DNA of 64,000 nt from Pseudomonas sp. B21_DOA (lineage in GTDB: Bacteria > Pseudomonadota > Gammaproteobacteria > Pseudomonadales > Pseudomonadaceae), in contig CP086683.1 in the NCBI GenBank assembly GCA_030544685.1, positions 3,782,001 through 3,846,000 on the forward strand. Direction: 5' to 3'. Within the stretch, counting starts at the first letter, position 1. Every line of letters starts with the position of its first letter. The position numbers and the translations under genes are program-made. This document shows, piece by piece, positions 35,275 through 39,669 of this stretch. The notes under the pieces were generated by a model. It was not told where the DNA came from. It did not search any database and saw nothing but the letters and a program-made list of their open reading frames with translations.

Positions 35275-35633
35275 CTACCGCGGCAATTCCAGATTATCCA
35301 GCACCCGATTCACCGCCAGTTCCCCGAGCATGATCAGCTGCGCAATCCCCATCAGCGTCCGCCGTTGCGATGGCTTGACCAGTCCGGCAAATTCCTGGGC
35401 GATGGTTTTGGCTGAGGCGAGGGTTTCGCAGGCGTTGGCCAGCAGGTCTTCGTTTTTGGTGTCGGCGGTGACGGCGTACATCGCGCGGGGGCTGTACGGC
35501 GGTGGGGTCGAGCCGGGAGGGCAGAGGTAGTGGTCGAGGGCGCGATCGGCAGCTTCGTGGAGTTTTTTTGAATTGAGGGATTCGTAGGGGAGGTGGGGTC
35601 GGTTTCGGGTGGGTTGGGTGTGGGTTTGGTCAT
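35275..35633 (-). CDS. DUF6124 family protein, copy 1 (apparent frameshift)
   Basis: Repaired length 119 aa. Starts MTKPTPNPPETDP; the conserved core is ESLNSKKLHEAADRALDHYL, then AMYAVTADTKNEDLLANACE, then VKPSQRRTLMGIAQLIMLGE, with C-terminus LDNLELPR. This is a Pseudomonas-restricted family of unknown function. GGAG lies 7 bases before the ATG and is the target of the antisense RNA at 35690-35764. The frame breaks at the G run 35587-35590 (C run in the gene), at exactly the same place as in copy 2. No membrane segments; probably a small cytoplasmic helical protein. Confidence 0.8.
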
Positions 35634-35689
35634 GGTAAAGCTCCAAATCAAAAAAGGAGCCATCATCTTTCGCTACCAAACGAAGGGGT

Positions 35690-35764
35690 GGTGGCCATAC
35701 GAAGGTTGGTAGACCGGTGACTTGGAAAACCGGCGCGCCCGAAGACGCCCTGCGCATGACCACC
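35690..35764 (-). ncRNA. C4-like antisense RNA, copy 1
   Basis: The reverse strand folds with a 12-bp closing stem (GGTGGTCATGCG, 35764-35753, with CGTATGGCCACC, 35701-35690). Inside are a UUCG hairpin (GCGTC-TTCG-GGCGC), a CCGGT/ACCGG hairpin whose loop holds TTTTCCAAGTC, and the segment GGTCTACCAACC. The loop is complementary to the DUF6124 Shine-Dalgarno region GATTTGGAG (35649-35641; 9 bp with two G-U). CTACCAA is complementary to TTGGTAG at 35679-35673. This is the organisation of c4 RNA of phages P1/P7 (two antisense boxes, downstream target over a ribosome-binding site). Family assignment is from memory and should be tested with the Rfam C4 model. Confidence 0.7.
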
Positions 35765-35966
35765 ATAAATACAACCCCCAAAAAGGGCCTGTATCGGTGA
35801 CGCTTATGCGCCAAGTCTAAGCCGGGCTACCAAACCCGATCGCTGATTCGTCAGCGACCGCACCACAATAGAACCCGCCCCCAAGGCGCACAAGCCGGCG
35901 GATTCTGGCGTAGCTGTAGGCAATGGCGCAATGATTTGTAGCCTTGAGACCGTTGCGGAAGGTGTC

Positions 35967-36127: not shown

Positions 36128-38668
36128 TTATCCGTCGGCTTTGGCTATGCATAAAGCACTACAAGTGAACGGACGTCCGTTTATATTCGCTGCGATGAGT
36201 GGGGTCATGGATCCTGAATTTGAATTCCAAGAGGAGTACGTCCAAAACCTACGGTCCTCACTAGGGCTGTAGTAACCGGGGTAATATTGATACAGACTGC
36301 CAGGTCCGCCTAGAACTCTAAACTTTAAGTTAAATAGGCTTAGATCATCCCGAGGTTCTGGTGGAAAGGGGTTCCTCCTACTCGCTGCATCCATGCCATA
36401 GCTGCTGCGTCGCTGAGGTTGTCACCGCCGCTTAGAATTTGTTGTACGTTGCTTGACTGAACGGGAATCTCCAATGACTTTCCGCTGGTATCAGACACGA
36501 TAATCTTCGCCATTCCATTCCAGACGGAACGAATTCGGCCGGTGGTATCTACGGATACTATTTCAGGGGCACTAGATGTATAGGTGTAAGGCGGTTTGCC
36601 GCCAGTAGCCTCACGTGTCACGACTGTACCGGGCAAGTCATTTCCGGTTAGTTCCCATCTAACTGCTGCAAGGTCAACTGTATAATTTCGTCCAGATAAA
36701 ACGACCGGCGAGGTGTCTACGGACAAAGATTCATCCACGGCGCTAACCCTATAACTCCGAATCAAAAACCGCTTCGCCAACGCCAGCTCTTCGCTTTTCC
36801 CAAACGCGATAAACATCTCGATCGTGAGGCTGCTGCCATCCTGCAACCCAATTAAATCGCCATAAGGCGCAAACGCTTCAAAGAAGCCTTCCTTGACCCA
36901 CTGCGCATTAACAAATGCAGACGTCGGCGCCCAGATGTATTCCTGGTAGGGCTTGCCATTGGCGTTCGTACCCTTGAACAACAGCCAGACGAATTGGCCC
37001 TCGGCGATCAGCGGGAAGCCCGGGCACCACATTTTGCCTTCGGGCGTGAGGTTGGCGAGCTTGAGTTCCGCGCCTTCGCCGTCGGCGTCCGCCTCTTTCA
37101 GCCGTGGGGCGATAAGCGCTGATTGCGGCAGGTCTTGCACGGTGAGGGTCAGTGTTTCGGAAGGCAGTTCTTCGCCATCGCGAGTGATAACGTAGCTGAC
37201 GCTGACCACGCCGCCCAGACTGTACGCCATCAATTGCGGGGGAGATCGTTGTTGAGGCCAATCTCGCTGATGAGTTTTGGCGTCGTGATGATCGAGCCTT
37301 CAGCGTGTGTCCCGGGTTTGGCGGTCCAGCGGACGCTGAGCAAGTCGCTAGGCAGCGTGTTGCCCTGTGGGACAGCGATGGTGAGTTTGCTCAGGGCATC
37401 GAGCGGCGCCAGGGTTGTGCCGTTGGCTTGCAGGACGCTGGGTGGTTTCAGCTCAAGACTGGTGCCGATAACTTGGGCTTTGGCCGTTTGGGATTTGCCC
37501 AAAAGGCTGCCGTTTCGCTTCACTTCATAGGTCACCGTGACCGTGCTTCCCGCAATGACCTTGTGGTTGGGTACTTTGAGAATGCAGGTTTTCTTGGGCT
37601 CGAAATCACCTTTTTCCACGGTGCCGTTCAGTGGTTCGACGATATCGGGAAAGCCCGTACGAGTTGCGGTGTAAATACCCTTAATCTCATCGCCTACAGC
37701 GATACGGCCATCTGCGGTCAGGATGGCCACAGTCAAATCATTTTTTGCCAGCTTCTTCAGATCGATAATGTCCGGCTCATCCGATGTGTCGCCTTCAATT
37801 TCCCGCAGGATTGCTTTAAGAAACAGCAGGCCATCCAGATCTTCGTCTACCGTCTGAGGCGGAGATCGAGGAGCGTCTGGATCTGCGGAGTTGAGTAGCT
37901 GGTCATGGACAGTGAACAAAAAATCCAGTTTGTTATCGTTGCGTTTGGCTCTCATCAGGAAAGCCTTGTCCACGGTTATCTCAATGTTCAGTGGCGTTTC
38001 GGAACCGTGACTGGGCGGAACAGGTGCTTGGGTGGGTTGCACTTCCACATCCAGGGTCTCGCCATTACAGATCAAGGTAATCAAGTCATATGCCCGGCAG
38101 TAAGGGTATTGGACTCTTACCTGTGCGCTGACAAAGTCAGCACCTACGCCATTTTTGATGCTGTCGGGTAGCAGGAGTTTGAGTTCGGAATGTCCGCCCG
38201 GAACGGTAAGACGATCCTTCAGCCCCGGTCGGATGAGGTTGAAGATAAAGGTGAGCGCTGGCGATTCTCCAATATTGGAGCTGGCGCGCCTGATGATGTA
38301 ATAGAGGCGAGTGACAACGCCGTAGTAAAACTGACCTTCCGATATGAATAACGCTATTTCGGCGTTCACGTCTTTAATGGTTGTGGTGTCCAACAGCATT
38401 GGCGCATTGATTGAGCGGGGCAGGTTTGTGGTCCAGTGGTTTTTTGGGGCAGGGAATCAAAAGTTGCCCAGAGCTCGACTTCATCACCTTGTTCAACAGT
38501 GCCAGCGAGTATTGGATCTATCACGACCTGAGCCATTCTGAAAATAGCCCCAGGGTAGGGAATCAGCGCGTGCAACGGCACACCAACGTTCGCGCCCCGG
38601 ATAGGTTTGGTTTGCAGTTTGATTTTCGGTGGAATCAACTGCAGCGTATTTTTCTTGGAAGCTGTCAT
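36128..38668 (-). CDS. Large Ig-like-repeat protein between duplicated DUF6124 units (three apparent frameshifts)
   Basis: Repaired length 847 aa. No signal peptide or membrane segment at the chosen start (MTASKKNTLQLIPPK). The body is beta-rich with repeated Ig/Big-type modules, for example VIAGSTVTVTYEVKRNGSLL, VVSVSYVITRDGEELPSETL and a BIG2-like SSAPEIVSVDTTGRIRSVWN. The end is a separate Tyr-rich segment (SLYQYYPGYYSPSEDRRFWTY). Breaks at 38440-38445, 37238-37242 and 36368-36371 are each fixed by one added base. Parts of the gene (36100-36750, 38100-38700) look more AT-rich than the neighbours, suggesting acquisition. Function unknown. The lack of a signal peptide argues against a simple adhesin unless export is by another route. 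Confidence 0.65.
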
Positions 38669-38797
38669 GGTCCGATTTCCCGAGATGGAGAGACTGGAAC
38701 CATCAGAGCGCGAAATCAAAAAATGCACACCTGTCAGATCTGACAGGTAAAGGCTCTTTTCAGACGAGCGGTCGAGCCAGGCCTTGGCTTGCGCGCC

Positions 38798-38965
38798 TTT
38801 TGTGGGAGCCAGCCTGATCGCGATTCCAGTCTGCCAGTCGAAGCTGCAGTTACCGACTTTCCGCATTCGCGAGCAAGCTCGCTCCCACAAATTCAGCGCT
38901 GTAACTGCAGCCGAGTGAGCGACACAAACCCCTGTGGGAGCGGGCTTGCCCGCGAAGGAGTCGGC
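38798..38965. repeat. Three REP elements
   Basis: REP palindromes at about 38801-38825, 38865-38890 and 38933-38963. The last two correspond to those at 35133-35235 in the first copy of the duplication. Confidence 0.85.
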
Positions 38966-39003: not shown

Positions 39004-39362
39004 CTACCGCGGTAATTCCAGATTATCCAGCACCCGATTCACCGCCAGTTCTCCGAGCATGATCAACTGCGCGATTCCCATTAGCGTCCGGCGTTGCGAC
39101 GGTTTCACCAGTCCGGCGAATTCCTGGGCGATGGTTTTGGCTGAGGCGAGGGTTTCGCAGGCGTTGGCCAGCAGGTCCTCGTTTTTCGTATCGGCGGTGA
39201 CGGCGTACATCGCGCGGGGGCTGTAGGGCGGTGGGGTCGAGCCGGGTGGGCAGAGGTAGTGGTCGAGGGCGCGGTCGGCGGCTTGGTGGAGTTTTTTTGA
39301 ATCGAGGGATTCGTAGGGGAGGTGGGGTCGGATTCGGGTGGGTTGGGTGTTGGTTTGATCAT
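39004..39362 (-). CDS. DUF6124 family protein, copy 2 (apparent frameshift)
   Basis: Repaired length 119 aa, almost identical to the copy at 35275 (starts MIKPTPNPPESDP). The same missing base is seen at the G run 39316-39319. Because two separately located copies break at the same C run, either a systematic base-calling error or a shared true frameshift is possible. The intact family sequence supports the former. Its ribosome-binding site AGGAG lies within the antisense target 39370-39380. Confidence 0.8.
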
Positions 39363-39420
39363 GGTGAAGCTCCTAGAGTCGACGGAGCCGCCACATTTCG
39401 CTGCGATACGAAAAGGAGGT

Positions 39421-39492
39421 GGCAGCTATACGCGGGTCGCAGACCGGGACTCTAGAACCGGCAGACCCGAAGGTCTCCCACGTACAGCCGCC
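39421..39492 (-). ncRNA. C4-like antisense RNA, copy 2
   Basis: The reverse strand folds like copy 1: 12-bp closing stem GGCGGCTGTACG (39492-39481) with CGTATAGCTGCC (39432-39421), hairpin AGACC-TTCG-GGTCT, and a CCGG/CCGG hairpin. Its loop holds TTCTAGAGTC, complementary to GACTCTAGGA (39380-39371) over the DUF6124 ribosome-binding site. CTGCGA is complementary to TCGCAG (39406-39401). Every closing-stem difference from copy 1 keeps pairing, and both antisense/target pairs have changed together. Confidence 0.7.
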
Positions 39493-39669
39493 ATAAGTAG
39501 CGGGTGTTGTGCGTCCAGAGATCGACGGGCTGCGAGACCCGATCGCTGATTCGTCAGCGACCGCACCACAATAGAACCCGCCGCCAAGGCGCACAAGCCG
39601 GCGGATTCTGGCGTAGCTGTAGGCAATGGCGCAAGAATTTGTAGCCTGGAAGGCGTGTCTGGAGGTGTC

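Follow-up and report, generated by a model that had tools for sequence, protein, structure and literature searches.

Two C4-type antisense RNA units in a Pseudomonas genome belong to a multi-copy chromosomal family whose members appear addressed to their own leaders

Introduction

Phages P1 and P7 carry the C4 antisense RNA (Rfam RF01695; Citron and Schuster 1990, cited after PMC5320573 and PMC12197685), which, in the accessible text of these two papers, is cut by RNase P and pairs through short boxes; a few changed C4 bases are described as separating P1 from P7 (PMC5320573). Herein we analysed a window of 64,000 nucleotides from the chromosome of Pseudomonas sp. B21_DOA (contig CP086683.1), which holds two complete C4 units on the minus strand, named copy 1 and copy 2, each with a c4-a1b1 element (RF03163) upstream of the C4 itself (RF01695). 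They resemble the P1/P7 RNA, as far as the accessible text describes it, in the three-stem fold, the a' and b' boxes, a b2 box over the ribosome-binding site and an a2 box just upstream of it. An earlier note on this DNA had described two leaders with the same fold and co-varying antisense and target boxes; the identity of the RNA as C4 and the upstream target pair a1/b1 go beyond that first reading.

Results

Both units share one order, namely a predicted promoter (TTGTGC-17-TATTGT), the a1 hairpin, b1, the C4 RNA, a2, b2 over the ribosome-binding site, the start codon and a DUF6124 gene (Table 1). The strings that the earlier note quoted from the two copies were all recovered on the minus strand when their coordinates were re-read, including the closing stem and P2 hairpin by which copy 2 keeps the fold with different bases. 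In both copies a' can pair with a2, and b' with b2, which lies at the ribosome-binding site, and both antisense boxes change together with their targets, as had been claimed: CTGCGA/TCGCAG in copy 2 against CTACCAA/TTGGTAG in copy 1 for a', and TTCTAGAGTC/GACTCTAGGA against TTCCAAGTCA/TGATTTGGAG for b'. In copy 2, b1 matches only weakly. Between a2 and b2 of this copy, GTGGCGGCT (39394-39386) duplicates the 5' arm of the closing stem of C4; its pairing with the 3' arm of that stem could give an alternative fold. Partial repeats of this kind were also found in other units of the same genome. Short repeats of the GCGAGCAAGCTCGCTCCCAC type, which we take to be REP-like, lie behind both DUF6124 copies (35250-35000 and 38980-38780), within the duplicated stretch.

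Table 1 Features of the two C4 units, in positions of the window (position 1 is its first letter)
Feature	Position	Strand	Basis and remarks
Copy 2, predicted promoter, -35 box TTGTGC	39591..39596	-	Sequence; prediction only
Copy 2, predicted promoter, -10 box TATTGT	39568..39573	-	17-nt spacer to -35; prediction only
Copy 2, c4-a1b1 element	39522..39574	-	RF03163, 48.9 bits, above the gathering score of 46.7
Copy 2, hairpin with a1 TCGCAG (39535-39530) in its loop	39526..39541	-	Sequence
Copy 2, C4 antisense RNA	39415..39498	-	RF01695, 70.2 bits, above the gathering score of 45
Copy 2, closing stem	39492-39481 with 39432-39421	-	12 pairs including G-U
Copy 2, P2 hairpin AGACC-TTCG-GGTCT	39476-39463	-	
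Copy 2, b' loop TTCTAGAGTC	39448..39457	-	Pairs with b2
Copy 2, a' box CTGCGA	39437..39442	-	Pairs with a1 and a2
Copy 2, hairpin with a2 TCGCAG (39406-39401) in its loop	39396..39413	-	Sequence
Copy 2, b2 box GACTCTAGGA	39371..39380	-	Pairs with b' (one G-U); overlaps GGAG (39373-39370) before the start codon
Copy 2, DUF6124 gene, ATG at 39362	39004..39362	-	PF19619 domain at 39207-39022; start and domain in different frames in the assembly
Copy 1, predicted promoter, -35 box TTGTGC	35888..35893	-	-10 box TATTGT at 35870-35865; prediction only
Copy 1, c4-a1b1 element, a1 TTGGTAG at 35833-35827	35819..35871	-	RF03163, 56.8 bits, above 46.7
Copy 1, C4 antisense RNA	35684..35770	-	RF01695, 80.8 bits, above 45
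Copy 1, b' TTCCAAGTCA	35727-35718	-	Pairs with b2 (including G-U)
Copy 1, a' CTACCAA	35712-35706	-	Pairs with a2
Copy 1, a2 TTGGTAG (35679-35673) and b2 TGATTTGGAG (35650-35641)	35641..35679	-	Precede the start codon
Copy 1, DUF6124 gene, ATG at 35633	35275..35633	-	PF19619 domain at 35478-35293; start and domain in different frames in the assembly

The genome that contains the window (5.94 Mb in one contig) carries 22 C4s, every one above threshold, and for 21 of them the next 700 nt downstream include a DUF6124 or DUF3077 domain. Conversely, a C4 precedes 19 of the 22 DUF6124 domains of the genome, in one case by 686 nt, where the domain is probably a tandem second one. In another Pseudomonas genome (G005) the corresponding count is 26 of 30 DUF6124 domains, and just 31 of 42 C4s precede DUF6124 or DUF3077, the remainder, where examined, preceding other small ORFs or Bro-N proteins; G005 also holds a tandem of three C4-DUF6124 units (G005:C1:3628473-3630617, minus strand), in which the C4s L080 and L081 are identical. 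With up to 27 candidates scored per genome, C4 turned up in 137 of the 149 Pseudomonas genomes, with a median of 14 copies and at least 27 in 35 genomes. In a class-wide sample outside Pseudomonas, with up to 15 candidates scored per genome, it was found in 19 of 275 genomes at 1-10 copies. None of 14 control genomes had it. A DUF6124 query matched one of 50,697 phage records and none of 72,556 plasmid records, and DUF6124 units also occur on some IMG/VR contigs, which may be prophage with host flanks.

Comparison of leaders was extended to units from the B21_DOA genome, G005 (30 of 42 units fetched), a further genome, G045 (30 of 30), and others. For stem covariation, box matches, terminator-like hairpins and box co-change, 102 of 109 C4s were kept (L115 and identical C4s being left out), and since 27 of the units, marked X, are the best hits of their genomes, the fractions given here for stems, boxes, hairpins, promoters and co-change do not come from a random sample. 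The three stems P1, P2 and P3 are paired in 98.3% of cells, and the GG that opens P1 is invariant in 102 of 102. The covariation check proposed in the earlier note was run with a count-based tool instead of R-scape: 18 of 25 pairs, spread over all three helices, change on both sides (248 cells against 60.5 after shuffling; 0 of 500 shuffles reached the observation), and the signal is abolished when the partner strand is slid. As the shuffle ignores relatedness, most weight should be given to the slid control and to measures based on the numbers of pairs and types.

At a2, 97 of the 102 units form 7-8 Watson-Crick pairs, compared with 20 of 302 combinations with swapped leaders; at b2, at least 7 are formed in 71 of 102 against 6 of 302, and a Shine-Dalgarno-like word lies within or beside b2 in 75 of 97. 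The b1 box reaches at least 7 in only 49 of 102 units. Located a1 boxes sit in the loop of a hairpin with a stem of at least 4 bp in 97% of cases (21% of random windows), and located a2 boxes in 81% (15%). The best promoter-like pair ends 28-33 nt before a1 in 61 of 100 units. Between b1 and C4, 26 of 102 units (including L009, L013, L061, L088 and L031) have a terminator-like hairpin with a T-run, compared with 0-3 of 102 in eight control windows, although at least two of the 26 are doubtful, the hairpin of L068 being the a1 hairpin itself and the T-run of L037 lying within the stem. Copy 2 has no such stretch and copy 1 only a T5 run. In some members of the C4 family these hairpins may provide a further layer of control, at the level of transcription. 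In several units (L009, from position 1140 on the plus strand, L150, L157, L160, L166, L174 and L180) the first ORF after C4 encodes 52 amino acids, and by analogy it is perhaps a coupling cistron like icd of P1.

All C4-leader pairs within a genome were scored, a' against the 32 nt after the C4 and the b' loop against the 42 nt before the start codon, with one G005 duplicate and the unsegmentable G045_L115 and G005_L068 left out. Across the 22 units of the B21_DOA genome the mean pairing energy was -26.8 kcal/mol for self and -14.5 kcal/mol for cross combinations; 21 of 22 C4s scored best with the leader of their own unit, and 22 of 22 leaders with their own C4. The own leader was also best for 24 of 28 C4s in G005 and 25 of 29 in G045 (own C4 best for 24 of 28 and 24 of 29 leaders, respectively), and 0 of 10,000 permutations reached the observed mean in any of the three genomes. 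When the boxes could be placed freely, the own leader was best for only 11 of 22, 16 of 30 and 10 of 30 units (B21_DOA, G005 and G045) and, on a1/b1, for only 4 of 22, 4 of 30 and 8 of 30, while 0 of 20,000 permutations reached the observed means throughout. Among the 22 units, the first 8 nt of a' take 17 different forms and the b' loops 22, and where one a' box is common to several paralogues b' must therefore discriminate.

For the two window copies the pairing is well above chance: each C4 on its own leader, a and b boxes together, gives -26.7 (copy 1) and -27.9 kcal/mol (copy 2), compared with -10.5 kcal/mol for the copy 1 C4 on the copy 2 leader and -12.7 kcal/mol for the reverse. These energies suggest that copies 1 and 2 would not cross-regulate each other. 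The runner-up leader for copy 2 is that of L026 at -24.0 kcal/mol, only 3.9 kcal/mol weaker than its own. The prediction of the earlier note that each RNA acts on its own transcript and not on the paralogue thus agrees with the pairing energies, but its exclusivity is imperfect, as the L018 C4 fits the L012 leader better than its own and four units each in G005 (of 28) and G045 (of 29) have a non-cognate best leader. With 21 of 22 C4s fitting their own message best, every chromosomal C4 probably forms its own separate off-switch, addressed to no other unit, as judged from sequence.

The boxes also change jointly when C4s diverge. A single difference in 87 positions separates the C4 of G005_L061 from that of G045_L088; it lies in a', and a1 and a2 each carry the matching change. 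Among 103 pairs of similar C4s with different a' boxes, which are not independent of one another, both a1 and a2 match in 102. Together with the covarying stems of the 102 C4s and the self-pairing in three genomes, this supports the view of the earlier note that the compensatory change points to both a functional structure and self-specific pairing. Copies 1 and 2 can be aligned over ~900 bp, in which the promoter region (57/60 and 55/60 columns identical) and the ORF (52-58 per 60, 337/360 overall) are far more alike than the cassette from a1 to b2 (just 21-37 per 60). L011/L017 (ORF 95%, C4 75%, a2b2 49%) and L010/copy 1 (ORF 93%, C4 62%) are mosaic in the same way, unlike L010/L018 (ORF 94%, C4 90%, a2b2 82%). 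Either the RNA cassette was exchanged or diversified, or else the ORFs were homogenised.

The C4 targets comprise DUF6124 (PF19619), DUF3077 (PF11275) and unassigned small proteins, with Bro-N proteins added in other Pseudomonas genomes. C4-led Bro-N genes were seen at L109:1637-2023(+), L049:926-1450(-) and L115:947-1450(-), and both Bro-N proteins scanned matched antirepressor PHROGs. L109 joins a DUF6124-type N-terminus (MIKVTPNPPE) to a Bro-N domain, so that one N-terminus occurs with different C-terminal domains. One search returned 4,871 proteins related to DUF6124/DUF3077. An AlphaFold2 model of P0002, 98% identical to the L011 paralogue, has a confident two-helix hairpin (helices 61-83 and 88-114) and a low-confidence N-terminal half (mean pLDDT 72.9, pTM 0.45); a Foldseek search of the PDB with it gave 122 matches at E<=10 and none at E<=0.001. 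A sequence search for DUF6124 function gave no match, and PADLOC gave no hit for five proteins. A mutation in a P. putida DUF3077 pseudogene is reported in the accessible part of the literature.

Both window ORFs (35275-35633 and 39004-39362) have their start codon and domain in different frames, the frames breaking at base runs, as they perhaps also do in ORFs around 36340-38890. DUF6124 units without a start in the domain frame make up 11 of 18 in this assembly (95.3% complete) but just 2 of 20 for G005 and 2 of 15 for G045, and C/G runs of at least 6 are 8 to 20 times rarer in it than in other Pseudomonas loci. This excess and the scarce C/G runs indicate that the broken DUF6124 frames of both window copies are likely due to sequencing error, as may be the other gene breaks in the window. 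A programmed frameshift in both ORFs was considered and rejected on the same counts and on the existence of intact relatives.

Discussion

Directly observed are the unit, the pairing of its boxes, a b2 that overlaps the ribosome-binding site, and a better fit of the boxes to their own leader than to those of paralogues; from these we consider it probable that the copy 2 C4 silences the gene it precedes. The leader would be transcribed from the predicted promoter, and C4 would be cut out of the 5' leader of DUF6124, its 5' end by RNase P, such cutting being reported for the P1/P7 C4. The freed RNA would then act in trans, on further copies of the transcript it came from, where a' and b' would pair with a2 and b2 and mask the ribosome-binding site, which would likely prevent translation. 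The upstream a1/b1 pair is probably a second site for the same RNA, and where a terminator-like hairpin separates b1 from C4, the RNA may in addition adjust how much of itself is made. Given the differences in boxes between paralogues, silencing by each unit would be confined to its own gene, with the sister genes unaffected.

The same boxes could instead work purely in cis, a' and b' pairing with a1/b1 or a2/b2 on the molecule that carries them, as a folding switch or attenuator and with no diffusible antisense RNA. One predicted transcript does carry all boxes, their self-matching fits cis as well as trans pairing, and about a quarter of the units (the 26 of 102 above) have the terminator-like hairpin that an attenuator could use. 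We nevertheless regard this as unlikely, since the accessible text of PMC5320573 and PMC12197685 describes, outside Pseudomonas, a phage RNA with the C4 fold that is processed and acts in trans, and since in A. baumannii, likewise outside Pseudomonas, C4-like RNAs are described whose C4 part is covered by many more reads than the stretch upstream of it (PMC5320573). That the units are functionless, decaying phage remnants whose pairings are inherited relics deserves hardly any credence: both window ORFs are out of frame, as decay would have it, but the compensatory change in stems and boxes would be unexpected, and the frame counts and scarce C/G runs point to sequencing error.

Very unlikely, too, is a store of immunity RNAs that would silence the leaders of incoming phages and not the cell's own genes. 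Similar leaders do occur in Pseudomonas phage records (4 with copy 2 as query, 33 with L009), and while a strict C4 pattern found none on IMG/VR, a looser one found 48 stretches, which gave 50 units, 36 of them distinct. However, the best chromosomal C4 paired with these 36 leaders at a mean of -23.5 kcal/mol (13 of 36 at <=-24), and with control leaders from the chromosomes of other genomes at -22.7 (24 of 80 at <=-24; the set sizes are unmatched), so that a phage-immunity library was rejected for want of a clear excess of matches to IMG/VR leaders over controls; own leaders fit far better. In the two phage records examined the similar leaders are found close to Rha-like or other regulator genes, and these neighbours, together with the Bro-N/antirepressor targets, fit an origin of the family in phage immunity regions.

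Beyond the silencing of copy 2 by its own C4, we put forward, tentatively and as a possibility that may well prove wrong, that Pseudomonas runs dozens of insulated, self-targeting C4 circuits, in which duplication keeps the protein nearly unchanged and readdresses six coupled boxes (a', a1, a2, b', b1 and b2) under selection on orthogonality, while part of the circuits also attenuate via a1/b1. On this tentative scheme the RNA cassette would be replaced or driven to a new address, and the attenuator ahead of C4 would be closed by C4 itself. If true, each cell would hold a natural set of 20-40 antisense RNA/target pairs on one scaffold, differing mainly in short address boxes, which would make the rules of RNA specificity directly measurable and orthogonal regulators obtainable from nature; the DUF6124/DUF3077 genes, a large group, would also gain a regulatory context.

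Among described systems, the c4-a1b1 motif (RF03163; Weinberg et al. 2010, PMC2864571) is matched by both window copies upstream of C4; the accessible text of that paper holds no mention that we found of a terminator-like hairpin after b1, such as some Pseudomonas units have. The Group 1 C4-like sRNAs of A. baumannii are similar in their many copies (21 similar sequences), variable a' box and reads consistent with processing, as given in the accessible text of PMC5320573, and differ in their proposed targets, other bacterial RNAs or phages. They are further set apart by description, as we found none there of matching downstream a2/b2 boxes, nor did we find one of self-targeting C4 paralogues in Pseudomonas within the accessible CC-licensed PMC literature. 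Relative to P1/P7, where C4 acts on the icd-ant antirepressor operon (a use that is no criterion of the Rfam model), the RNAs here are chromosomal, present in 22 copies in the one genome and each apparently self-addressed, and their targets are mostly DUF6124/DUF3077, with DUF6124 the target of both window copies. Since C4 is known from P1/P7, the kind of RNA is not new; what is new is the scale and the self-addressing, that is, the multi-copy chromosomal use of a known RNA family, which suggests that a phage immunity RNA has been taken over for chromosomal genes.
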